A stretch of DNA of 64,000 nucleotides from Rhynchonema sp. JSB1_4 (taxonomy: Eukaryota > Nematoda > Chromadorea > Monhysterida > Xyalidae). The stretch is from assembly GCA_030248065.1 (NCBI GenBank), contig JASAMV010006278.1:1-64000 (forward strand), read 5' to 3'. Below are positions 3,304 through 61,588 of this stretch, one piece after another. The position numbers were made by a program, and so were the translations under genes. Below the pieces are notes generated by a model. That model did not search any database. It had not been told where the DNA came from and was given only the letters and a program-made list of their open reading frames with translations. How positions within the stretch are numbered: position 1 is the first letter of the stretch; each line of letters begins with the position of its first letter.

Positions 3304-10497
<7,194 letters not shown>

Positions 10498-22225: not shown

Positions 22226-22451
22226 GGGTGATATTTTCGAAACGGTGTAAAGGTCAGTTGGGAGTAAAGGTCGGTGGAAAGCTCGGTCGACAGCTCAGTG
22301 TAATAGACCTCGGTGTAAACTTGAAACATTCCACGTTAATAACAGGCAATGTTTCACGTTTACACCGAGCTACGTCGACCGAGCTTTCGACCGAACTTTA
22401 CACCGACCTTTACGCCCAACTGACCTTTACACCGTTTCGAAAATTCCACCC
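22226..22451. mobile_element. Fold-back MITE, copy 1 (GGGTG...CACCC)
   Basis: The left end GGGTGATATTTTCGAAACGG is matched, inverted, by GGGTGGAATTTTCGAAACGG at the right. Both arms continue GTGTAAAGGTCAGTTGGG and AAAGGTCGGTG, and the whole element folds on itself. A second copy lies at 53699-53889 in a GALNT intron. Flanking TAT/TAC may be a worn 3-bp duplication. Confidence 0.8.
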
Positions 22452-24178: not shown

Positions 24179-26679
24179 CAATGTGGCATGAGGTGCGAGT
24201 ATAAATCCAGCGGACTGAAGCCATAGAAATTTGTTGTTGTTTCTTGTGTCATGAAGGGGTGCGGCAGCGTTTTGTTGATTATGTTCGCACCCCGGTTTTT
24301 TGAGCGGCCCGTGCTCTGGCGTGCGAAAAGAGGCAACACACCGCATCCACTTTGCAAGCAGAGCACAGTGATTACCACAAAAGGGGGGACGGGACAGCAG
24401 ATGAGAAGTGCAAAGTGGCGAACGAAACACGCCAAAGTCATTCGTGTTGCTGTCGGCTATGGGCACATCAGTTGACTGACTGACTGGATTGACTGCAAAC
24501 GACTGCAGCTAAAAGACGATAATGTTGAAAAGCGATCTACCGGTAAAATGCAGCGCAGCACCGCCGTGGAGGGCCACTCGGTGTAACAAATAAAACGGAA
24601 AAAAAGTTTTACACAGTCGCGCACGCACACGGAGCAGTTAAGCGCACTATGCAGTTAGCCGACGATTGAAAAGCAAAAACCGAAAGTGCATTGCATTCGT
24701 TTTGCATTTGCTGTCGCCTGTCGTTTTTGCTAGTTTTTACAATGCGCCGGGCTTGCGGATACCCATTGTTCACTCGCGGAGCGGCTGGCTTCAAGTCGAA
24801 AGTCGGACACGAACCGTTTATTAAATCTTACGCCACAGTCACCGCAATGCCCGATGCGCCACGTCAGGGTTGAAACTGGTGTGCAGCGAAAAACTGCTCC
24901 AGTCGACTGCTGCTGTGGTGGTGACGCAAAACAGCTACAAATCAGCTAGCCGCACGTTCATACATATACGTGGACTAGCCATACCTCCATTGTGGCAGCG
25001 ACGCGACTGGGCTGGTCAGGTCAGGTTGCTGGATGGGCGGTAGGTATGTGTCGCCGAAGCGAGCATTCATGTGAAAATCACGGTGGGCGCATAGACCTGC
25101 GACGCAAAATGGTTCCCGGATGAGCATGTGACCATATATAAACTGCGAAACATCAGCTTCTTGCGATCACCATGCGGTGCATGATCAGCTGTGCATGCAA
25201 TACCAACTCCCACTGCCTTCGTGAAACATCAGGTATGGTGATGTGTGATTTGTTGTCCCATCTTCCCATCTCTGTCTGGATGCAAAAACACACTCTCACA
25301 GTTTGAGAAAGAAGGCAATATCATTTCAGCTGAACCAGCCAGGAGAGCAACAGAATGCGACTTCACAACGCAACCGGATAACTAGAAGAAGTATATACAC
25401 ACCGAGCGCGCTTGTCCCCGCTGCTAAACGTACAAAAAGCAAACAAACCAAAAAGAAGACTGGTCCCGTGTCCGCACAGGCTATGGGCCATGTCGTCTGT
25501 GTGCCTCGTGCGCAGGGCAGCCGTATTTTCAGCCGTTTGTGTCACATTTACGGTTTAAAAACGCACCAAGACGGTGAAAACTTCAGTGATCGGACGGCAG
25601 GCAGCAGGCTGACAACACGCTAAATCCACACGGCCACATACTGCCCCATGCATTGCGCACACATCACAACACCAAGTGAGACGAAGAACCGTCAAAACGT
25701 GCCGGACGCGGGTAAAAGTTGTGTCGTCGTCGCTCGCTAGGCAGCAAAAAGGAGGACGCGATGTGCTTCAGCCACATTTCACGCTGCAGTGACATTGCTT
25801 GGATCTGAAGCTGGTGCATTGCTGAGAAACTGGGTGTCGTCCGCCCCTGTTTCCCATGCTGCAGTGTTGTATGCATCATGTAAAATTACCATGTTCCATT
25901 TCCAAGTTCTAATTGTTTGACGTTCATCACTTGTCGAACAAGGGCACATTTTGTTAGCAGTCGATAAATGCCGTAGTGAGTTCGGTTACACATTTTTAAT
26001 TTTACCAAATGTGCATGCACTTCGGGGCTGCACGTTTCTCCCTGTCCCAGTTTTTTGCACCACATTTCACACAATTTTGTTCGATTTATTTTTCACCTGT
26101 CAGCAGAAATAATGCGCGCGCTCATATTTGCTGTCCTCAAACATTTTGGATACATGTTTACATGCTCGTTTCTTTGGGAGCTGTGTCCCCACCACGTTAT
26201 GTGCTTCACCTTGAATTAACCGTTTCCGACCGGAAATACTTGGACTTCGTCAACTTTTCACGAGCGATCGATCGCAAGCGCATGATCCTAGAGCAGACGC
26301 CTCTCGTCGTCCCAAATCTTTGGTCGGATCGGACTGCACTTATGATTTTGTGATAAAGTGGTGTTTTCAACCTACATTTGCAAACGAGCGGTGCACCAGG
26401 TCATCGTCAGTGTGAATGTAAAATGTGTCATTGCACACCACAGCACACTGGTCTTTTGTGTGGTCTGACCTAGCGCATGTTGCCAGAACGAGATGGCACA
26501 GCACGAGAGCGAAACCGCTTGTTGTCCTGCTGCCCGTGTTGTGCATAATTGTGCATGAGAACGGCCAGATTGCAAGTGCATGTATCAGTGTGCCGGAATG
26601 GTTTGATACGGTAGTTATTGTCAACGTCAGGATTGTCGGACTCAGAACTGGAGTCCCTTTTGAGTGACGTCAAACTCAT
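24179..26679 (-). CDS. Hypothetical spliced gene, function unknown (partial model)
   Basis: Not recognised. Four exon candidates join in phase: 26679-26626 (MSLTSLKRDSSSESDNPD), 25858-25690 (HGKQGRTTPS...RPARFD), 25096-24985 (MNARFGDTYLPPIQQPDLTS...) and 24214-24179 (SPLDLYSHLMPHW). Each has an AG acceptor and GT donor of the style of the firm genes. The last donor is followed after 6 nt by TGATGTTTCA, as in real introns here. Exon 2 carries a helical, amphipathic stretch (HQLQIQAMSLQREMWLKHIA) then a basic run (PSERRRHNFYPRP). The frame is open 12 codons upstream of the chosen Met (an ATG at 26715), and the 3' end is not found. It may be a regulatory protein or may not be a gene at all. Confidence 0.35.
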
Positions 26680-27149
26680 AGTCCTGGCCTGGCCCTGATG
26701 CCTGTGGTGTGACAAAATTAAGAACGCGTGTCACTTTGTTGCCTGCGCTGCGGCCAATGCATGATCGCCATGATCATGCATGATTGCTGTCGGGCCGGGC
26801 CGGACTCCTTCCCGACATTGCCCAGCCAAAATATTGAAAAAATCCTGGAGGGGGTTCCCCCCTAACAGAGGTCGCAATCGGGCCGGCCCGACCTCGGGCC
26901 GGGCCGGGCCGGGCCGGGCCGCGATTTTGGGCTTTTGGCTCGGGCCGGGCCGGGCCGGGCCGGAGATTTGGAGGGTCGGGCCGGGCCGGGCCGGGCACCC
27001 CGGCCCGAAGCTTCTGAAGTGACTTATTTTATTGAAAAAGTAGGGATTTTTTTGTCAAAAATACCAAAATTTCTGACGGATTCGGCAAGTAAGTGATCAG
27101 TATTGTCTCTATCTGACGACCATTTCATGGAAAACAATGTATTTTCAAC

Positions 27150-27969
27150 CAGTGGTGTAGCTACCCAGGCGGGGCGGCAACCTACAGTACCACCAAAAAT
27201 GTGGGACGGCAACCTACCTACTGTACCGGCCGGGCTCAGTGTTGGAGGTGGGGGGGGGGGGGGGGGGGGGGGGGTAGCCCCCCCCAGTACAGTAGGTATC
27301 CCCCCCTCGCCTGGTACAGTAGGTATCCCCCCCGATGTTTGGCATGGTACAGTAGGTATCCCCCCCGATTTTCACCCCGGTACAGTAGGTATCCCCCCCG
27401 ATTTTGCCCCAAAAGTGCCAATTTTTGACCAAAATGGCCGAAATTAGTGCAAAATCAGTGGATTTTACCTCAAATTACCCGAAATTCGTTCGCTACGCGC
27501 GCAAATACTACGTTTTCACACGATTCCACACATAATAAACACATAAAAAATTTTCACCCCAAAACCAAACCCCCCCCCAACCCCCCCCCCCTAGGTACAT
27601 AACCCCCCCCCCCCAGGCCATCGGCTCTGGTACAGTAGGTATCCCCCCCTCTCCGAGCGCGGTACAGTAGGTATCCCCCCCTCCAGAGTACCTCCAACAC
27701 TGGCCGGGCTAAGGGGGAACAAAATTTTTTCGGTCGAAATTTTGAAGAAAATGTGCTCTAAAACGCTAATTTCGCGCGTAGCGCGGCGATTTATCGCCTA
27801 TTTGGAGTGAAAAGTACCGATTTTATATTCCATTTTGAGCCAAAAATCGCAACTTACTGTACTAGCCGCCGGGCGGCGACCTACCTAGTGTACCAGGATG
27901 GAGCGTCAACCTACCTACCTACTGTACCTAGGGGGGACCCCCACCGCCCCACCCCCTGCAATACCGTTG
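27150..27969. mobile_element. hAT-like family F, copy 1 nested in A1
   Basis: Starts CAGTGGTGTAGCTACCC and ends GCAATACCGTTG, a worn inverse of the start. It is flanked by TTTTCAAC at 27142-27149 and 27970-27977. The family A copy at 60174-60749 carries the uninterrupted site (near 60547-60562, inverted), which shows the boundaries directly. The internal word is CAACCTACCTACTGTACC. Confidence 0.82.
27237..27702. mobile_element. hAT-like family B nested in F1
   Basis: Ends CAGTGTTGGAGGT and ACCTCCAACACTG; perfect 8-bp duplication GCCGGGCT at 27229-27236 and 27703-27710. Subterminal arrays repeat GGTACAGTAGGTATCCCCCC. Long G and C runs flank them. Confidence 0.88.
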
Positions 27970-28590
27970 TTTTCAACCAAAAAATAGGTTCAAAAAATCG
28001 TAAAAATTATGACAAAAATTGGGTTAAAATCTGAGCCAAAAAATTCGGGCCGGGCCGGGCCGGGCCGGAGATTTGGGGGTTCGGGCCGGGCCGGGCCGGC
28101 CAAACCCGGCCCGATTGCGACCTCTGCCCCCTAAGGTACCGTAAAAACCTACCGTAAAAACCTTAAATAGAAGGGGGCTCTATTAATTCACTGACCCCAT
28201 TTTGGGGGGCTCTATTGCGGGGGGGCTCTAGTCTTGGGGGGCCTCTATTAATTCACTGACCCGAACCTGAAAAATTGTTCCCAGAAATACCCCCAAAAAC
28301 CCCTAAAAAGGGGCTTGAAAAAATGCTTTTTTCGCTTGTAATCGCATTTATTCGTGTCTATTTCAGAGGTCGCAATCGGGCCGGCCCGAGCTCGGGCCGG
28401 GCCGGGCCGCGATTTTGGGCTGTTGGCTCGGGCCGGGCCGGAGATTTGGAGGGTCGGGCCGGGCCGGGCCGGGCCGGGCACCCCGGCCCGAAGCTTCTGA
28501 AGTGACTTATTTTACTGAAAAAGTAGGGATTTTTTTGTCAAAAATACTAAAATTTCTGACGGATTCGGCAAATAAGTGATCAGTATTGTC

Positions 28591-29363
28591 CAGTGGTGTA
28601 GCTACCCAGGCGGGGCGGCAACCTACTGTACCACCAAAAATGTGGGGTGGCAAAGGCAACCTACCTCCTACCAGTGTAGTTCCTGGGGGGGAGGGGGGGA
28701 CCCCCCCTGAGGTACACTAATTTCCCCGACCAAGGTACACTAGTACACTAATTTCCCCTCCGGGTACACTAATTTCCCCAATTTTTGCCTAAAATGGCCA
28801 TTTTTAGGCCTAAAATGGGCATTTTTAGGCCTAAAATGTGTGATTTTTAGGTCAATGTTCTCAAAAGTCGCCAAAATACCCTTGTTCTGAAGAATTTTTT
28901 CCAAAAAGGGGTAAAAATAGGTCAAATTTTCTACCTCAAAAAGTGACTTTTTCCTGATTTTGGGTCTTCCCCCCCCCCTTCCTCCCCAGGGAGGTACACT
29001 AATTTCCCCTCCGAAAAAGTAGGGAGGTACACTAATTTCCCCGCCGGGCCAGGAACTACACTGCCTCCTACTGTACCGGCCGAGCTAGGGGGTGGGGGCG
29101 GATAAAAATTTTTAGGTCTAAATATTGATGAAAATGCGCTCTAAAACGCTCATTTCGGGCGTAGCGCGCGATTTTTCGCCTATTTGGAGTAAAAAATGCC
29201 GATTTTATGCCATTTTGAGCCAAAGATCGCAACTTACTGTACCAGCCGCCGGGCGGCGACCTACCTACTGTTATGTACCAAGATGGAGTGTCAACCTACC
29301 TATGTACCTACTGTACCTAGGGCAGGGGGGACCCCCCAGCCCCCACCCCCTGCAACACCGTTG
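28591..29363. mobile_element. hAT-like family F, copy 2 (chimeric flanks)
   Basis: The left flank is GTATTGTC, the target of copy F3. The right flank is TTTTCAAC, the target of copy F1. The host sequence between those two targets is missing. This fits recombination between two F insertions in different family A copies. Confidence 0.72.
28672..29063. mobile_element. hAT-like family C, copy 1
   Basis: Ends CAGTGTAGTTCCTGG and, at the right, GGAACTACACTG; perfect duplication CCTCCTAC at 28664-28671 and 29064-29071. The subterminal word is GGTACACTAATTTCCCC. It is nested in the family F copy. Confidence 0.88.
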
Positions 29364-29695
29364 TTTTCAACCAAAAAAATAGGTTAAAAAAATCGCAAAA
29401 ATTATGACAAAAATTGGGTTAAAGTCTGAGCCAAAAATTCGGGCCGGGCCGGGCCGGAGATTTGGGGGTACGGGTCGGGCCGGGCCGGGCCGGAGATTTG
29501 GGGGCTCGGGCCGGGCCGGGGCCGGCCAAACCCGGCCCGATTGCGACCTCTGGTCTATTCGTCAATAAGAGGCGTATTATTATGTGCTCTGAACGAACAA
29601 CAAACGTGCATAAATGTACCTGTGCACCACTATCAAGCCTTAATACACTACTGTATAGGGGATGTTGCTTAGGGGGGCTCTATTAATTCACTGAC

Positions 29696-30375
29696 CAGAG
29701 GTCGCAATCGGGCCGGGCCGCGATTTTGGGCTTTTGGCTCGGGCCGGGCCGGAGATTTGGAGGGTCGGGCCGGGCCGGGCCGGGCACCCCGGCCCGAAGC
29801 TTCTGAAGTGACTTATTTTACCGAAAAAGTAGGGTTTTTTTGTCAAAAATACTAAAATTTCTGACGGATTCAGCAAGTAAGTGATCAGTATTGTCCAGTG
29901 GTGTGGCTACCCAGGCGTGCAATCAACCTACTGTACCACCAGAAAGGCCTGCAATCAACCTACCTACTGTACCGGCCGAGCTAGGGGGGGGGAACAAAAT
30001 TTTTATGTCTAGATTAAGATGAAAATGTACTCTAAAACCCTCGCGATTTTTCGCCTATTTGGAGTGAAAAATATCGATTTTATACCATTTTGAGCAAAAA
30101 ATAAATAAAAAATATAAAAATAAAAAATACCTACTGTACCAGGATGGCGCGTCATCTACCTTACCTACCTACTGTACCTAGAGGGGGAACCCCCCACCCC
30201 ACCCCCAGCCACACTATTGGTATTGTCTATCTGGCGACTTTTCGTATTTTTGACAAAAAATCCCTACTTTTTTCAGTAAAATAAGTCACTTCAGAAGCTT
30301 CGGGCCGGGGTGCCCGGCCCGGCCCGGCCCGAGCCAAAAGCCCAAAATCGCGGCCCGGCCCGATTGCGACCTCTG
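29696..30375. mobile_element. hAT-like family A, copy 3 (rearranged)
   Basis: Both outer ends carry the same family A arm in inverted orientation, so it looks like an inverted duplication. Flanks TCACTGAC and CTCCAAAA do not match, which supports rearrangement after insertion. Contains family F copy 3. Confidence 0.7.
29896..30219. mobile_element. hAT-like family F, copy 3
   Basis: Ends CAGTGGTGTGGC and GCCACACTATTG; perfect duplication GTATTGTC at 29888-29895 and 30220-30227. Confidence 0.82.
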
Positions 30376-30596
30376 CTCCAAAATAATCAAAATCGCTTGC
30401 TGGCGCAAGCCTAGCCCCCAAAATGACCATTTTTGCGCTTTCAACACCGATTTTGCTCGATTTTCTTCTTAAAAAATTGACCTTTTTTGAATAACCCCCC
30501 TGGGTATCCGAGCTTTTTTATTTTAGGGAGCAACCCCCTTGGTATCCGAGATTTTTCATTTTGGGTATCCGGTATCAGAAAATTTTGGATTTTGGG

Positions 30597-30963
30597 TAGT
30601 TCCTGGGGGGGGAAGGGGGGATCGCCCCCCTCGGGTACGCTATCTCCCCCTCAGGTGGTACACTATCCCCCTATCTCCCCCTCCGGGTACACTATCTCCC
30701 CCAATTTTTGCCCAAAATAGGCATTTTTAGGCCAAAAATATGTGATTTTAAGGTCAATGTTCTCAAAAGTCGCCAAAATACCCTTTTTATGAAGAATTTT
30801 TTCCAAAAAGGGGCAAAAATAGGTCAAATTTTCTACCTCAAAAAGTGACTTTTTCCTGAATTTGGCTTTTCCCCCCCCCCTCCCCCCTCGGGGGTACACT
30901 ATCTCCCCCTCCGAAAAAAACGGAGGGTCCGCTATCTCCCCCTCCGGACCAGGAACTACACTG
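30597..30963. mobile_element. hAT-like family C, copy 2 (worn left end)
   Basis: Right end GGAACTACACTG is intact. The left end begins at TAGTTCCTGG without CAGTG. The body has the family word in the form GGTACACTATCTCCCCC. The target duplication is not clear (GTATCCGG at right; the same word at ~30565). Confidence 0.65.
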
Positions 30964-31019
30964 GTATCCGGCATCCTGACTTTTTGATTTCCCAACGATA
31001 CCACTGCCCATACCTACCC

Positions 31020-31495
31020 CGGAATAGAGCCCCCGTAATACAGCCCCCCAGAAAGGGGTGTTTTCGATATTTTGTAACTTTAACAGCGGCAATTATGCTT
31101 AAAAGGCTGTATTCCAGAGGTCTCAATCGGGGCGCACCGCGATTTTGGGCTTTTGGCTTGGGCCGGCGGGCCAGTCACCCCTGCCCGAGAGGCCGGGCCG
31201 GGCCAGAGATTTGGGGGCTCGGGACGGCCGGCCAAACCCGGCCCGATTGCGACCTCTGCTGTATTCTGTTGTGCTTGTGCACGCAAGCTTAAACAACGTT
31301 TGACACAGCAACACAGCCTTAGCCTTACCATACCACTAGTCTGTGGTACGGCCACGACGGTGATGGTTGGGGGGGGATGGGGTTCTATTAATGGGGGGTC
31401 AATTGATGGCGGGTTCTATTTTTGATTTCGAACCATTTGGGTTGGGTTAAATTAATGGGGGGTAAATTAATGGGGGTTCTATTTCCGACAATTTT
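31020..31495. mobile_element. TA-target element family H, copy 1 (inverted, approximate limits)
   Basis: Shares its body with the complete copy at 60825-61245, in reverse orientation. Its right end reads TTCTATTTCCGACAAT. It is interrupted by a short family A element at 31115-31258. The left limit is uncertain. Confidence 0.6.
31115..31258. mobile_element. hAT-like family A, copy 4 (144 bp)
   Basis: Ends CAGAGGTCTCAATCGGGG and CCCGATTGCGACCTCTG; perfect duplication CTGTATTC at 31107-31114 and 31259-31266. The homologous H copy at 60825-61245 has the empty site (GAATACAG, inverted, near 61031). Confidence 0.9.
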
Positions 31496-31499
31496 TTGG

Positions 31500-32665
31500 G
31501 CCGAAAATAAGCCTTCGTGAAAAAACCGGGTAAACTTTTCTTATATTTTTTGCCCAAACTGACGTTTTCACCATCATTTATCAAACGTTGCTTCGGGAAG
31601 TTCATCAATGCCGATGTGCCACCCAGAGGCCTTTTATTTATATGTTTGCGTGCCATCAGTGGTGTCGTTGAGAAATCGAAATTTTCTCATACCCAGTCCA
31701 ATTTTCGGGAAATTTCCCATACATACCCCCAAAAATCAAAAATTTCCCATACCAGGGGGGGTTTTCCAAAAACTCAAAAATTTCCCATACCCGAGGGTGG
31801 GGGTTTTGAAAAAAATGACCCCAAAAATCTTCTAAAAGTGCCAAAACTGGTCTAAAAAGTGCTTAAAACAGTGTTTTCTTGCGGTAGTAAGCTATTTTTG
31901 ACATTTTTGGACGAAAAATGGCCAATTTTGGTACTTCTCGGGGTCAAAAAGTCATTTCTTAGGGGTGCTTGTTCCAAAAGTGAAAAATTTCCCATACCCC
32001 ATACCCCCGGCCGATTTCCCATACCCCATACCAGGGGGGGTAACCCCCCCCCCCCCAACGACACCACTGCGTGCCATCCAGTTTTTTATTTCTATTTTTG
32101 GCTGCTAATTATGAACTTCTGTACTTTTTCATCCAGTTCTTCAGCTAGCTAGACAGTTTTTTCTTGTTTTGTGGGGCTGGCTAGGACTCTTAGAATTTTT
32201 CTGCCACTTTTTAATTTTGCCAAAATATTTTTAAATTTGTTTTTGCGAGGAATTCTGTTTTTTTCCAGATAATGTTAATTCCTATTTTATTTGTCTTGTT
32301 TGTTGTATTTTTTCTCATCGTTTCGGTGCTAATCATCTGATAGAATTCCTTGGCTTGGAGACGTTTCATGTTTCCATCAAGTAATTAGGCCTTGGCCTGG
32401 CCTGTACCTACCTTGCGAGCCACACCACATTTGAACCACAAGTAATTTATCTTTCACGCTGCGAGCGAAGCACATGAAACTTGGAAACTGGGGAGTTCAA
32501 AGTTCAATCGTATTTTATTGGCCGAAAATAAATTTCCGTGAAAAAACGCGTAAAGTTTTTTTTATTTTTTTGCCAAAACTAACGTCTTTGACCATCATAA
32601 TTTTGCAGTGTTGCTTTAGGAAGTTCATCAATGCCGAGGCGAGGTGCCACTTGGAGGGCAAAACC
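31500..32665. repeat. Diverged ~150-bp repeat pair flanking family D
   Basis: 31500-31650 and 32520-32665 share GGCCGAAAATAA, GTGAAAAAACG-like, TTCATCAATGCCGA and GTGCCAC stretches in the same order. The family is not identified. Confidence 0.55.
31657..32069. mobile_element. hAT-like family D
   Basis: Ends CAGTGGTGTCGTTG and CAACGACACCACTG; perfect duplication CGTGCCAT at 31649-31656 and 32070-32077. The subterminal word is AAATTTCCCATACCCC, iterated at both ends. Confidence 0.88.
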
Positions 32666-34040
32666 CACGTTACTTCACCTCACCTCACCTGAGATCAGGG
32701 ATTTTTAACCAAAATTGCTAGCCGTAAGGTACTGCGCTACATAGTTAGATTTCAGATTAACCAGTTCACCAGTCCCAACTGGCTGATGAAATGTTGAGGT
32801 CCAGTAGCGCTGGTGGTATTTTTGTCATTTTGGGCAGTCTTTGATTGTCAATAGAAGTGTTTTTACTCAAACACTTGCAGATTTATTGTCATGCAAGCCC
32901 TGAAAAGGAAAGCACTCGTAATCATTATCCATGTAATGTGTTGTTGCTTGTTTTTCAATGTGGCCTGTTTTTTGTCCAGTATGGCGTGACGTGTTGTTTC
33001 CATTAATTCACGCATTAGCTCTTTGTTGCTGTCCGAAAAGTACACGTCATCGATATTTTTGACTCATCTTTGTTTTATCGGTTTCTATTGTTTTTTTGGC
33101 CAGTGTAAGTGAGGCAGCAATCAGCATATGGTGTCCTCATGAATAATTAATGGACTGGACTTAGAATGCCAAGTGCCTTTGGTCTTTTATTATACAACTG
33201 CACTACCCTCCATTGTGCTTGAATTTGCTGTATTGTTTGCTCTGTCTGTGTACTTCTGGTCAGTTCCAGAAACTGTATTAGTTGTCTTGTTCAGTTATCG
33301 TCAAATCATGACATATTTGTGCCCTTTTTTTCTTCGTCCCCAAAGCAATTACAACATAATTTTCGTTTCCAGGGTCCATCACCTATTTATTTCATCTGTT
33401 CACTCACCATCACAAATCCGGTCGCATTGATTGCGCACACCACCAAATTACCCGAATTCATTTTGGTTTTTGGTTGTTGGAATCGTTAAGTGGTTGTTAA
33501 AAAACATCGACATCGCGTCGATTGAAGGTGAGACAGTGGGCCATTTGCACTTACGAAAACCATTCCTTCCAAACGAACCGCTTGACAACTGAAGACCATT
33601 GTGTCGACCGGGAAACCGGCACTTCATATTCTTAAAATTAGCAGTTTTGCAGTGAAATCAGACCGTAGATGATCAGTGGTCATCAAAACAATGATTAAAC
33701 GAAACGAAACACGTCTAAACGTCGAGCTTATTTTTTTAAAAAGCTGATTCAAATGAACAACAAATGAAGGCTTGTTCCGAGTAACACATCAACACTTCGG
33801 TCAGGCAACAGCGCAGAAACAGTAGGGGGTCTGGCCGGGCAGCTCATTATCACCATTTGTGGCTCGTTTGCCAAAAATCTAGTGTTTCATTCTTACTTCA
33901 GCACTGGCCCCCTGAAATTCTGGTGGCTCATTTGCCAAAATCTTGTGGCCCATTCACAATTTTTAATGGCCGAATGAGCCACCGTTAGTGGCAAAAAAAC
34001 CCTGAAGATTGCCCATGATTACAGTTGCAGCGTCTGCACG
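32078..34040. other. Intergenic flank of the SERCA gene
   Basis: AT-rich, with only a worn repeat copy near 32520-32665 and no coding pattern. The final few hundred bases would be promoter and 5' leader of SERCA. Confidence 0.5.
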
Positions 34041-45887
<11,847 letters not shown>

Positions 45888-52500: not shown

Positions 52501-54308
52501 AGAAAGAATACATATACATAGCATTCGGCCTGATTGACCACATATTAACAAGCCCACCAGATGGCCCTAAAACTTGTCTATTATCAGTATAAACCCTGAG
52601 GTCCCTCCTCAAAATTCTCTGTTTCGACTGGTGTTCTGGTCCAGCTGTCAAATAAAGTGTGGGAAATGTGACGAACGGTCCACTCCCCACTCAGAACGCC
52701 GACATCGGTGACATATCTGAACGCAAGGCGCTACGCGAACGACTAAAATGCAAAAGCTTCAAGTGGTACCTAGACAATGTGATACCCGATAAATTTGTGC
52801 CTGATGAAAATGTGATTGCGTTCGGAATGGTTGGTTGGCTGGTTTTTTGTGCCTTCTAGTTAACGTCATATTTGGTGGTTTGTGCTTGTTCGTCTTGAGT
52901 ATCAATACCGCTATCCTAGTCATTTCTGAGTACAGTAAACTGCTAGGCGACACCAATGGAGGTACGTTTCCTTGACAGACTCATAAATGTTGGCCGGTTA
53001 ACATTGTCATTATCACGTGACCTTTTCGCTTAGGGATATTGCGAGCTTTAATGGCGCCTCTAATTTCGACCTACCTGTAAATTGTTCTCAGACAAACTTT
53101 GCTTTGATCGAAATTTCAGTAAATCTAAAAATATATTTCGTGGAAAAGTCACTACGACCGATCCTATCCAGTTTGTTTACAAAGGCTGATGTGGTTTTTC
53201 TTTTCATTAATTCTTTATCTGACGCGTAGGTTCGCAATCCATCCAGCCAACTCTGCCTCGACACATTGCAACGCGATGAAAAACTAATGCTCAACATTGG
53301 CGTCTTCTCGTGTCAGAACGGCGCCAGCTCGTCTCAGGTGATCTGCTGGTTGTTGATTGCGTTTTTGGACTTGGTTTATGTCAGATGTTGAGTCAGGAAT
53401 TGTTAGACATGAAACATTGGTGACGAACTTGACGGTCGGTCGGTGTTGCGTTGATTTGCTTTACTTGACAGGTTTGCCGTCGTGTCTACACTTCATCTTC
53501 GTTTGCTTGCACATTCAGGTGTTTTCCCTGACCCCCGAAGGCAATTTGCGACGCGAGGAGACCTGTGCGGGTGTGGGACAACCGCGCGAGGATAAATGGA
53601 GGAGAAATGTACAATTGTCCTACTGTGTGTCGAGAAGTGAAAATCAAAAATGGTTGGCCTTTTCATTGATTTTAGCTGGTGGATGGTTGGCTCACAAAGG
53701 GTGATATTTTCGAAACGTTAAAGTAGTTGGTAAAGTGAAAACTCCTATAAATCCCAACTTGAAACATTGCACGTTAATAACAGGCAATGTTTCACGTTTA
53801 CACCGAGCTACGCCGACCGAGCTTTCGACCGAACTTTACACCGACCTTTACGCCCAACTGACCTTTACACCGTTTCGAAAATTCCACCCAAAGGCAGCGT
53901 TTGGTTTGCGTACAATGTAGGAACATACAGTATGTATACGTACAGTAAGAGGGCATACGCGGAGTGGAATTCTGCAATTTGGATCACTGAAAGATATCAG
54001 AGCCTAACGGCAGATTGGGAAGTAAATATCGTTCAAAAGGTTTTATGTAACAAAAACGGTCACATGTATGTACATGGGGGTCACTATAAAGAGTGTACAT
54101 TGTGCAGAGTTGTTTTGTATGCCCTGATATATCAAGGCATCGTCAATTGCCCCAAAATCATCTAATCCACGTGGAAAGCGGGTTGTGTCTCGATTCGGAA
54201 GCACTCAAGAACGGAGATGACGTCCTGGTCACCAAATGTGTGGACGGGAAAATCTCGCAAATTTGGGAATGGGAACAAACGGGGAATGCGAAAGCGCAGG
54301 AGGACTGA
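49514..54308 (+). CDS. Polypeptide N-acetylgalactosaminyltransferase (GALNT family), 11 exons, 590 aa
   Basis: Golgi enzyme that starts mucin-type O-glycosylation by moving GalNAc from UDP-GalNAc to Ser/Thr. Exons: 49514-49845, 49917-49964, 50262-50428, 50679-50850, 51132-51335, 51766-51883, 52137-52319, 52695-52829, 53230-53337, 53519-53652, 54137-54308. All junctions are in phase. Type II membrane layout: short basic N-terminus ([14 protein letters not shown]), then hydrophobic anchor ([15 protein letters not shown]) and stem. Catalytic part: [43 protein letters not shown], the DSH metal motif (231-233), [11 protein letters not shown] (from 337) and [20 protein letters not shown] ricin-type lectin domain follows (~450-590; [21 protein letters not shown]). 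The last acceptor (TATCAAG) was chosen by phase. Nematodes have several gly genes; I cannot assign one. Confidence 0.94.
53699..53889. mobile_element. Fold-back MITE, copy 2, in GALNT last intron
   Basis: The right arm is nearly identical to the copy at 22226-22451 (AATAACAGGCAATGTTTCAC, then ...CCGTTTCGAAAATTCCACCC). The left arm is shortened and decayed. Flanked by AAA on each side. Confidence 0.8.
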
Positions 54309-57543: not shown

Positions 57544-60500
57544 CTAACGACCACCGCGGAATCCGCCCCCGCCGCGGCCACCGCCACCGCGTCCGCCGCC
57601 GAAACCGCGACCGCCGCCGCCACCTGCAAAATTATATGTATGCGACTTGTGGTTCGAAGTTATTAAGTTCAATTTTCTTGTTCCACAGCGTGTTGCAAAA
57701 ACGTTTGGCACTCATGCTGCTGGGTGGCTGTTGATTAGTGGATCGAGTGAAATAAAACTTCCGACCGAGGTCGTCAAATAGAAACAACTCCGGTATCAAA
57801 TTTGGCGACCGGAGAGAGGACGGGATGATCTGCTTTGGTGACATGACTTTTTGGGATATTGTAAGATCTACTGACGCCGCATATTTGACCAAAGGAAGTG
57901 GTTCACTGAATGTCTGGGAGCAACGCCCACGCACGGTAGATAACGGTGGCATCAGCGAAGAAGCCTTGAAGTATCTCTCGATGCAAAAATGACGTGACCA
58001 GGCCAACCCTAATTTATGATCCGATCCCAAAACATATTTTAATACGCCTCTGTCAGCCTGGTGCTCCCACAACAGCCCCGAATAAGAACACAAATGTGCA
58101 AACATACGTCCACGGAACGCGCCACCCCTGCCGCCCCGTCCGCCTCTGCCGCCAAACGCCGCTGTGGCCATCGCTGCGGCTGACTTTGCTTTGCCGATGT
58201 TTTTGAACATCGGGGCATTCTTCAGCATATCGGGCAGGATGAGGAATCTGATTTTCGAGCCGCGAATGAAGACGTTTTCGAGTTGTGCCACTCGACCGTC
58301 GCGATACGTGACTGAGATGTCGGATAACTGACAGTTCATGTTGTCCTCGGCTTCGACCAGCTTGCCGCGGTACACTTCGCCTACAAAATGGACAATCAGC
58401 TTTGAAACCACGCACAGCAAAACTACTCGTCTGATGATAGAAAGAAGTCACGATTAGAACACTCAACTCACTCAGAAACTGGAACCCGACCGACCGCGGT
58501 AGGTGTTGTCCGATCAATCAAAAGGGTATTTTGGCGTTTTTTAACAACATTGACCTAACACTCGGCCCGGCTCGGTTGAATTTGGTACAATGGAGCAGGA
58601 GCGGGGGCACCTGGGTACAGGTACCCCCCGAAAAGTCACGAAAAGGGATACCTAAATCGCGACTTTCACTCTCGAACACTTCAAAAGTAAAAAAATCGCG
58701 CGCTTCGCGTGTCAAACACATGCATTTTGGAGCAAAAAAGTCAAAATGTAAAGGAGCAAAAATGCCAAACACAAACATTTTCACTGATGTGGGATTTAAC
58801 CGGCACGGTGCCGAATTTGAACAAGCACAGTGGCGTGGGGTACCTGGGTACACGCACCCCCTCAGCCGCTCACAAACAGGACCCCCAAAATCGCAAGATT
58901 TTGGCTCCCGAACACTTCAAATGTCAGAAAATCGCACTATAGTTTGTATCGGTACAGCAGCTCTTCACATACCTTGTTAATCAAACCAGAGATTAGGATG
59001 GGGCCGGGTAACCTCGGCCCGGCCCGCTCAGGCATTTTTAGGGATATTTCTGGGAATAATTTTTCAGATTCGGGCCAGTGAATTAATAGAGCCGGAGCCC
59101 CCCCCCGGAATAGAGCCCCCAAAATGGGGTCAGTAAATTAATTGAGCATACCCGATACTTGGCAAATGCCGAGACCCGATAGTTCATGAAAAAAAGCCGA
59201 TACTCGATACTTCGAAAATAACCCGATAACGCCAAAATACCCACAAAAACGCCGTTTTTATGGCACACGCGCGCAAATAATTTTTTATAAAAATCTTGCT
59301 CTGTTGTTGTGTCATGCAACGTGAAAACAGCTGACCAACACACATTAAAAAAATTGTAGTTCGTAAAACAGTGAACATCTGGAAAGCTGTTTTGGAATCG
59401 CGAAAAGTGTAATACCCGATACCTTGGAACATGCCGATACCCGATGCCCCACACTTTTTGGGTGCCAATACCCGATACCTTCCGATCCCTACTTAGGGGG
59501 CTCTATTAATTCACTGACACTTTTTGGGGGCTGTATTACGGGGGGCTCTATTAAATCACTGACCCCTTTTTGGAGGGCTCTATTCTCGGGGGCTGTACCG
59601 CAAAAACCAAAATACAGCCCCCCGAATAGAGCCCCGAAAAAGGGGTCAGTGAATTAATAGAGCCCCCAGTGTAGTGGCTGGGGGGAGGGGGGGATTCCCC
59701 CCTGAAGAGAGTGTCCTTGCAACCACCCCTTGGGGGGATGGGGGAAGGGTAAGTACCTACCTTGCAACCACCCCGGAGGGTAGCTTGCAACCATCAATTT
59801 ATGGTTTTTATGGGCAAAAAAGCGTGTTTTTCGACCTCAAAACGCGCAAACCTCCATATAATAGGTGTTTTAGGGAAATTTTCGGTCAAAATGGAAAAAA
59901 GTACTAATTTTTCGGCCAAATTTGCAGTATAATGCATGCAAAAAACACCCTTTTTTCGGACCTCAGCTCAGGGGTACCTTGCAACCATCTGGATCCATCC
60001 CCCCAAAGGTACCTTACAACCATTTGCCTGCCACTACACTGGAGCCCCCAACAAGTAAACTCTTCTATACTATGCAGTTGTGTATTAAGGCTTGATAGTT
60101 GTGCACGGGTACATTATGCAGGTTGGTTGTTCGTTTAGACCATATAATACGCCTCTTATTGATGAATAGACACCAGAGGTCGCAATCGGGCCGGGTTTGG
60201 CCGGCCCGAGCCCCCGAATCTCGGGCCCGGCTCGAACCCCCAACATGGATTTTTTTTAACCAAATTTAGTAGCTTTTTAGCTACTAAATTTTTTGAAAAG
60301 CTAGTTAATTTTCAAATTTAGTAGCCTAAAAGCTACTAAATTTTGTATGTTGGCCAAAAAAGCTAGTAAATTGGCTTTTCAGCGGCAAAAAAGCTACTAA
60401 ATTTTTGATTTTACTAGCTTCTTGCTACCAGCCCATTTTGAAAAAATAAACCCTGACCCCCAAATCTCCGGCCCGGCCCGAATTTTTGGCTCAGATTTTA

Positions 60501-61588
60501 ACCCAATTTTTGTCATAATTTTTGCGATTTGTTTGAACCTATTTTTTGGTTGAAAATTCATTGTTTTCCATGAAAAAGTCGTCAGATAGACAATACTGAT
60601 CACTTAGTTGCCGAATCCGTCAGAAATTTTAGTATTTTTTGACAAAAACAATCCATACTTTTTCACTAAAATAAGTCACTTCAGAAGCGTCGGGCCGGGC
60701 CCCGACCCTCCGAATCTCCGGGGCCGGCCCGGCCCGATTGCGACCTCTGATAGACACGAATGAATAATGCGATCATAGGCGAAAAACATCCTTTCAAGCC
60801 CCTCTCTGGTGGTTTTTAGGGGTACCGTATTGTCGGAAATAGAACCCCCCCATTAATTGACCCCCCATTAATTGAACCCCCCCTAAATGGCTCGAAATCA
60901 AAAATAGAACCCCCCATTAATTGACCCCCCCATTAATAGAACCCCACCCCCAACCTTCACCGTACCACAGACTAGTGGTACGGTAAGGCTGTGCTGTTGT
61001 GTCAAACGTTGTTTAAGCTTGCGTACACAACAGAATACAGCTTTTTAAGCATAATAGCTGCTGTTAAAGTTGAACAATACCGAAAACAAGCCATTTTTAT
61101 GGGCATCAGTAACAACGATTTTTTTCGTCGGGGGCCAAATGAAAAATATAACCCCCCCAATAATTGACCCCCCCATAAATTGAACCCCCCCAAAATGACC
61201 CCAGTGAAAAAATAGACCCCCCGGGTTCTATTTCCGACAATACGGTATTTCAGGGAACAATTTTTCAGATTCGGGTCAGTTAAAAAAGGGAGCCCCCCGG
61301 AATAGAGCCTCCCCAATGGGGTCAGTGAATTAGAGCCTCCTGTATTTAGGTTTTTATTTTTTACGGTACCCTCTGCGCGACCCGCGACGCGCAACTTTTT
61401 TGGAGATTTTTGGTCAGACGCTTTTGGCTTCCGACCCCGCCCGACCGAACCCGATCCTAATCTCTGTGGATCAAACCAAGACGTGCGTGGATGAAAAAGG
61501 AAAATGACGACAAACCTGTTGAAGTTTCCAACGTGATAATGTGGCCTTCGGCCTCATGCAGCACTTTTATAGGCACGCCAATCGACAT
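57544..61588 (-). CDS. SNRPD3: Small nuclear ribonucleoprotein Sm D3, 3 exons, 141 aa
   Basis: Core spliceosomal protein of the heptameric Sm ring around U1, U2, U4 and U5 snRNAs. Exons, 5' to 3': 61588-61516, 58380-58108, 57623-57544. Both junctions are in phase. Exon 1 reads [20 protein letters not shown], near identical to known Sm D3 starts. Exon 2 gives the rest of the Sm fold: [40 protein letters not shown] and [20 protein letters not shown]. Exon 3 encodes the Gly/Arg-rich tail ([16 protein letters not shown]), the usual site of arginine methylation. Intron 1 is 3,135 bp and filled with transposons, including families A, E and H. Confidence 0.96.
58525..59666. repeat. Degenerate repeat mosaic in Sm D3 intron 1
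   Basis: Contains worn pieces of several elements: AGGGTATTTTGGCG (also in family C bodies), CTGGGTAC / GTACCCCC words, GGCCCGGCCC, and iterated GGGGCTCTATTAATTCACTGAC units in both orientations (59085-59130, 59498-59662). Limits of single elements could not be fixed. Confidence 0.55.
59667..60041. mobile_element. hAT-like family E in Sm D3 intron 1
   Basis: Ends CAGTGTAGTGGC and GCCACTACACTG (the right copy reads TGCCACTACACTG). Flanks GAGCCCC on both sides, a 7-8 bp duplication blurred by a C run. The subterminal word is AGGTACCTTGCAACCA. Confidence 0.72.
60174..60749. mobile_element. hAT-like family A, copy 5 (empty F site)
   Basis: Ends CAGAGGTCGCAATCGGGCC and its inverse; perfect duplication ATAGACAC at 60166-60173 and 60750-60757. 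It carries the family body without the F insertion found in A1. It therefore shows the pre-insertion state. Confidence 0.9.
60825..61245. mobile_element. TA-target element family H, copy 2
   Basis: Perfect inverted ends CCGTATTGTCGGAAATAGAA at both sides, with TA at 60823-60824 and 61246-61247. The surrounding GGGG-TA-TTTC sequence matches an uninterrupted relative near 28290 (inverted). The subterminal word is CCCCCATTAATTGACCCC. A TA duplication suits a Tc1/mariner-type mechanism (inference). Confidence 0.78.

Follow-up and report, generated by a model that had tools for sequence, protein, structure and literature searches.

The transposases of Herves and Ac bind repeated subterminal motifs, CG/AATTCAT at both ends of Herves and AAACGG in Ac (PMC3143072, PMC3260210). 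In Hermes the subterminal repeats (STRs) are 4-bp AAGT/AAGC sites, with LE-STR2 to 7 in antisense and RE-STR1 to 5 in sense orientation; most or all activity is lost when the ends are made symmetrical, and their asymmetry is called important for activity (PMC10368747). Repeat polarity also differs between the two ends of Kat1 (PMC4763223). One example of short non-coding elements filed under hAT is mar of Drosophila (PMC3517528), and Galileo of Drosophila mojavensis, a P-element superfamily member with long terminal inverted repeats (TIRs), has coexisting subfamilies that exchange sequence and tandem repeats proposed to be secondary binding sites (PMC3573991). Here we analyse a nest of short hAT-type elements, and above all the motif arrays near their ends, in a 64,000-nucleotide stretch of the nematode Rhynchonema sp. 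JSB1_4 (part of contig JASAMV010006278.1, our C3841; the genome searched is the 204-Mb assembly GCA_030248065.1). We refer to this whole stretch as the window.

The original prediction, made from the letters of the window, described seven families (A–G) of nested hAT-like transposons without a transposase of their own. That reading is partly supported; it missed the motif repeats, mainly direct, that most families carry close to each end, and the four coherent motif classes of family C. The elements themselves are non-autonomous hAT-type miniature inverted-repeat transposable elements (MITEs) and ordinary in kind, and it is the array evidence that is unusual. Whereas MITE families are as a rule delimited by tip sequence, it is the inner arrays that tell the subfamilies apart here.

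Like Hermes, by our reading of it, the elements have subterminal repeats at both ends that run in direct orientation across the element; taken from the tips inward, the Hermes STRs would have the polarity of the arrays described here, as the figure legend suggests (PMC10368747). However, the Hermes sites are 4 bp long, whereas the motifs here are longer and family-specific, and no enzyme with matching ends was found for them in the genome searches described below. Coherent motif switching within a family is not mentioned in the excerpts on Herves and Ac/Ds (PMC3143072, PMC3260210), nor do those on Galileo mention motifs being replaced as a set while the core is shared (PMC3573991). In contrast to mar, as briefly described (PMC3517528), many families coexist here in one genome, and four motif classes occur within one of them, C. 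The titles and abstract openings searched reported no switching of subterminal motifs as a set, which is weak evidence of absence.

Family C falls into four motif classes that agree at both ends

Family C has one TIR and a similar core throughout. Another forty C loci were picked by their tips, without regard to the motif, and together with nine earlier ones gave 49 loci, 29 of which were 330–430 bp long with both tips. All but two of these (L084 and L117, dropped) had at least two exact sites of a single class and could be classed, giving four classes: I, GTACACTAATTTCCCC (4 copies); II, GTACACTAACCGCCGC (6 copies); III, GTACACTATCTCCCCC (8 copies); and IV, GTACGTCTGTTCCCCC (9 copies). Exact signatures of two classes occurred in 0/29 copies, and the class called from the left array alone agreed with that of the right array in 27/27. 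The window's own copies belong to classes I and III (Table 1).

Among the 22 copies left out of this classification, L108 has two classes, the tip of a class IV insertion interrupting a class II site. L118, which lacks the left motifs and the right tip, has class III sites at the right and a left spacer resembling I and II, and is possibly a mixed-class relic. L101 and the window copy C2 each have one near-match to IV in a C-rich stretch, which looks like chance. Genome-wide, a 35-place pattern over two right-hand C sites gave 2621 matches (control 0), with one common class IV form missed because the site spacing is fixed in the pattern; right-array pairs were readable in 77 of 100 listed rows, 73 of them of the same class, 4 unclassed and 0 mixed.

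The class consensuses differ at 0/30 tip positions, at 18–42 of 59–60 specifier positions and at 6–22 of 157–178 core positions. Within classes, which are themselves named by motif, variation is 0.8–3.3% in the specifier and 4.8–13.2% in the core. When copies were assigned to classes by the left array and specifiers were compared at the right, the III versus I contrast had 7/0 fixed/polymorphic columns in the specifier and 1/36 in the core, and the IV versus II contrast 17/3 and 9/65, respectively; Fisher p values over six class contrasts ran from 2.3e-5 to 1.2e-9 and are descriptive only, as columns are not independent. The motifs differ fixedly between classes, and the core mostly does not. 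Since the tips are the same across classes, class identity resides in the arrays, and both ends change together.

A core-only tree with the motifs omitted takes 4 class changes, against a minimum of 3, and I and III are inseparable by core. On visual inspection the arrays of class III have features in common with those of IV, and its core groups with I; spacer counts alone (III–IV 11/43, I–III 12/43) do not show the III–IV array likeness. These patterns hint at recombination of C cores between classes, and the spread of cores by that route remains a rival account of the classes.

Direct arrays near both ends in most families

We scanned each copy for 11-mers common to both ends, direct versus inverted, alongside one base-shuffled version per copy. 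Direct sharing was present in every copy of A (11/11), B (5/5), C (8/8), D/G (4/4), F (28/28), X1 (25/25) and Y (12/12) and in 12/13 of the X3 set (X1–X3 and Y are our labels for further families in the genome). Inverted sharing was found in no copy of B, C, F or Y, in 1/4 of D/G and in 3/13 of the X3 set; base-shuffled copies gave 0 shared 11-mers. The array motifs of B, C, D, F and G are about 10–20 bp long and family-specific. Such arrays suggest that end asymmetry of the Hermes type may be common in hAT elements.

The elements are non-autonomous hAT-type MITEs

Insertions of hAT elements are characterised by CAGNG tips and a preference for nTnnnnAn targets. A blind scan of the window for CAGNG..CNCTG pairs 80–4000 bp apart, with an exact 8-bp duplication required, recovered A1, A4, A5, B, C1, C3, D and G, that is, the earlier list minus F. 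An exact 8-mer stood at the tips in 8 of 3413 candidate pairs and in 0 at each of nine outward-shifted offsets, and the longest exact duplication was 8 bp in 8/8 recovered elements. The duplications of F1 (TTTTCAAC, 27142-27149 and 27970-27977) and F3 (GTATTGTC, 29888-29895 and 30220-30227) are also exact, as read directly, so that all ten duplications listed by the original prediction hold. Exceptions are A2 (7/8), A3 (unmatched), F2 (two different flanks) and C2 (left tip lost). A, B, C, D and G have CAGNG..CNCTG tips; F departs from this at its right tip, which in the window reads CAACGG (F1, F2) or CAATAG (F3) and is never the inverse of CAGTG. Among the first 100 F matches listed genome-wide, 35 start CAATGG and 11 are right-type tips with CAGTGG; the F right tip is mostly CAAYG.

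The families are numerous across the genome. The 19-bp A end has 1210 forward and 1219 reverse exact matches, 2429 in all (control 0 and 0); C/X3-type ends have 6802 (control 5), F-type ends 2709 (control 23) and B-type ends 1688 (control 2), the last three patterns including an eight-base flank and by design missing flanks that begin with C. We surveyed end pairs in 78 sequences (77 loci and the window, with L001 excluded as the window copy), allowing at most 2 mismatches in the tips, taking the best-matching right end and counting a duplication at no more than 1 mismatch; similar tip sets overlap in this survey, D with G, and X3 with C and X2. Duplications flanked 26/39 pairs of A, 7/9 of B, 10/15 of C, 4/5 of D/G, 41/52 of F, 30/33 of X1 and 13/13 of Y (all exact in Y). 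Random flank pairs matched in 28/2000 (A) to 353/2000 (F) cases, the F control being inflated because insertion sites are shared. In the pattern listings, adjacent plus-minus pairs had a duplication in 18/21 cases for A, 12/22 for B and 10/27 for C, with shuffled match rates of 0.039 (A), 0.035 (B) and 0.015 (C). Some of the missed pairs are probably due to the flank filter and to truncated neighbours. Sampled copies end at the same points as the window elements and carry 8-bp duplications. The flanks of A (T at position 2, 0.55; A at position 7, 0.54) and B (0.50 and 0.40) show the nTnnnnAn bias over the window background (T 0.28, A 0.26). Short, non-coding, of high copy number and uniform at their ends, the elements are MITEs, and the hAT hallmarks that the original prediction had read in the window recur in their genomic copies.

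On several contigs (C9, at locus L060, C214, C256, C176, C156 and C89:61301-66260) the same 8-bp flank appears on opposite strands at mirrored positions. These are large inverted duplications, which may be assembly or amplification artefacts.

Remnants of hAT genes lie in two other families

The nest has 52 open reading frames (ORFs) of at least 60 aa, the ten longest of which gave no match in Pfam; movement in trans, as originally proposed, is therefore the likely reading. We searched the genome with the profiles PF05699, PF14291, PF14372 and zf-BED, all aimed at hAT-type or BED domains. PF05699 gave 150 scored matches among 330 candidates, and thirty of its loci, with ten longer windows, were scanned for tips: 20 lay in X1, five in Y and five had no placement. 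PF14291 and PF14372 had 0 genome matches, and the same searches also matched none of the control genomes. Around the PF05699 loci, X1 elements are 1.1–1.5 kb long with CAGTGTTCGAACGG tips and exact 8-bp duplications. Seven of the eight BED loci examined are Y and one (L071) is X1; in the TAGGGATCGGCG-tipped Y elements BED and PF05699 both occur. Pfam confirmed a BED domain in L073 and the hAT dimerisation domain in L028, L042 and L067. We read the X1 and Y loci as probable deletion derivatives of two hAT genes. The transposase with matching ends for which the original prediction proposed a genome search was not among the loci recovered with these profiles, the hAT remnants that could be placed lying in the two other families.

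X1 copies with a remnant of the hAT C-terminal domain, CAGTGTTCGAACGG tips and 8-bp duplications are found among loci L021-L050 and L061-L070. Y copies with TAGGGATCGGCGTCGG tips are L024-L026, L030, L048, L067 and L072-L078, with many stretches 98–100% identical between copies, and sister deletion forms of Y retain either the BED finger or the hAT dimerisation domain.

What may read the arrays

We consider it likely that these hAT-type MITEs are moved in trans, that their direct arrays are putative BED-domain binding sites and that the C arrays switched together with transposase specificity. In such a scheme hAT transposases would cut and paste the MITEs, leaving 8-bp target duplications; cleavage would take place at the short inverted tips, and BED-type domains of the oligomeric enzyme would bind the arrays at both ends, which, the arrays being direct, would differ in polarity, as they do in Hermes. 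The array of family C would have switched motif as a set at both ends, with the tips staying identical and the core similar, presumably following changes in transposase specificity. Most simply, the arrays would have to be bound by a class-specific protein, in all likelihood a hAT transposase; because such binding would be required, mismatched recombinants would, we propose, not be mobilised. Versions of one family differ most in their near-end motif, as if tuned to different DNA-binding proteins. A direct prediction is that there are diverged DNA-binding domains for the four C motifs, and the joint change of both ends, with more than 2600 right-array matches, provides a natural data set on the co-change of transposase and recognition site.

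Several observations weigh against this scheme. The genome searches and tip scans described above found no transposase with A–G ends, and ORF lists, judged by eye, showed nested MITEs and no transposase in ten long A copies (outer duplications are exact in seven) and in a C copy of 2 kb. The spacers between C motifs differ between classes too, at 8–15 of 43 positions; C flanks show little nTnnnnAn bias (T2 0.37, A7 0.28), and only 10/27 adjacent C pairs keep the duplication. Inverted 11-mers are shared in 8/11 A copies, and 24/25 X1 copies share direct and inverted words. The array case for A is weak, because A4 and A5 have no shared 10-mer and the motif of A3 belongs to the nested F3. In Hermes, the right end is reported to lack BED-domain contact, mutations in the inner sites of the left end caused no strong drop in transposition, and an element with two left ends was not rescued when asymmetry was restored over 50 bp (PMC10368747); from the right-end and inner-site data, arrays at both ends need not be essential.

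An alternative is that the direct repeats are satellite-like, homogenised by slippage or gene conversion, and not transposase sites, the classes being by-products of concerted evolution. Recombination between copies does occur (F2 combines a pair of F insertion lineages, see below), the by-eye grouping of class III arrays with IV and of its core with I fits such exchange, with the caveat on spacer counts given above, and inner sites were not required in the published Hermes excerpt (PMC10368747). However, classes I, III and IV retain the right-hand spacer TCCGAAAA between motifs that differ on both sides, the arrays lie ~200 bp apart with a left/right mismatch in 0/27 copies, and within the motif-named classes the specifier varies less than the core. 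We find homogenisation alone an unlikely explanation; conversion could nonetheless supply the mechanism of motif change within the transposase-specificity scheme.

A wider proposal is offered tentatively: non-autonomous hAT elements might replace their whole putative binding-site set at both ends at once, keeping tips and core, in a series of specificity switches that would be recorded in the four classes of C, and would reflect divergence of hAT transposase DNA-binding domains within one genome and exclude cross-mobilisation between classes. Families B, F and X2 have similar motifs, also headed GGTAC.

That the elements belong to another superfamily altogether (P, KDZ, Merlin or MULE) seems very improbable. 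Several superfamilies produce 8-bp duplications, and searches aimed at hAT-type and BED domains returned no matching transposase; against this, CAGNG tips with nTnnnnAn sites are a hAT signature, and X1 and Y, which share the 8-bp duplications and direct arrays, carry hAT domains.

F entered A at few sites and the composites were amplified

The nesting of B in F1 in A1 and of C1 in F2 in A2 is as originally described. It does not, however, consist of separate local insertions throughout. Among the first 100 F ends listed, 47 lie within one mismatch of three 8-mers (GTATTGTC, 30; AAAACAAT, 11; TTTTCAAC, 6), each of them present within A1's core. The A copies that carry F at GTATTGTC show no fewer than five distinct outer duplications (L005, L008, L009, L010, L018). 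Three recurrent sites combined with varied outer duplications indicate that F entered A at three sites and that the composites were then amplified, so that F-in-A is largely inherited from an ancestral composite copied as a unit. F2 has the left flank of one F lineage and the right flank of another, which indicates recombination between copies; it looks like a recombinant of two F-in-A composites. B and C1, inside F1 and F2, each have their own exact duplication, as a pile of independent local insertions without composite amplification would predict, but the recurrent F sites and varied outer duplications leave that picture of the whole nest hardly credible.

Other features of the window

Table 1. 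Elements of the nest and related copies in the window, with target-site duplications (TSDs) or flanks.
Element	Position	Strand	TSD or flanks	Description
A1	26866..28126	+	TSD CCCCCTAA	hAT-type MITE, TIR CAGAGGTCGCAATCGG
F1	27150..27969	+	flanks TTTTCAAC	inside A1; recurrent site within A
B	27237..27702	+	TSD GCCGGGCT	inside F1; six GTACAGTAGGTATCC motifs, all + strand, 4 left/2 right
A2	28364..29552	+	flanks GTCTATTT/GTCTATTC	flanks 7/8 matching
F2	28591..29363	+	flanks GTATTGTC left, TTTTCAAC right	inside A2; recombinant-looking
C1	28672..29063	+	TSD CCTCCTAC	inside F2; motif class I, five GTACACTAATTTCC, all +
A3	29696..30375	+	flanks unmatched	inner arms partly inverted
F3	29896..30219	+	flanks GTATTGTC	inside A3; commonest F site within A
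C2	30597..30963	+		left tip lost; motif class III
A4	31115..31258	+	TSD CTGTATTC	deletion form of A, 144 bp
D	31657..32069	.	TSD CGTGCCAT	five exact ATTTCCCATAC motifs, all + strand
G	37789..38178	.	TSD GTCTGGTG	three GCAAGAAAGC motifs, + strand, 1 left/2 right
A5	60174..60749	-	TSD ATAGACAC	
C3	62829..63228	-	TSD ATCAGATC	motif class III, five CTATCTCCCC sites

Rfam returned nothing at gathering scores for 26000-33000 of the window. Another element lies at 59667-60041; it has CAGTGTAGTGGC tips, its CTTGCAACCA motifs are direct, and its flanks (AGAGCCCC/GAGCCCCC) do not match in register. Repeats like GGGGGGCTCTATTAATTCACTGACC at 28137-28260 and 59496-59592 resemble subterminal motifs in form and are possibly the element that the original prediction called H. 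ORFs elsewhere in the window carry Pfam domains of a cation ATPase, a glycosyltransferase and an LSM protein. There is also a 360-bp TC microsatellite at 5580-5939, and a pair of 134-bp repeats, 99% identical, lies at 22318-22451 and 53756-53889.

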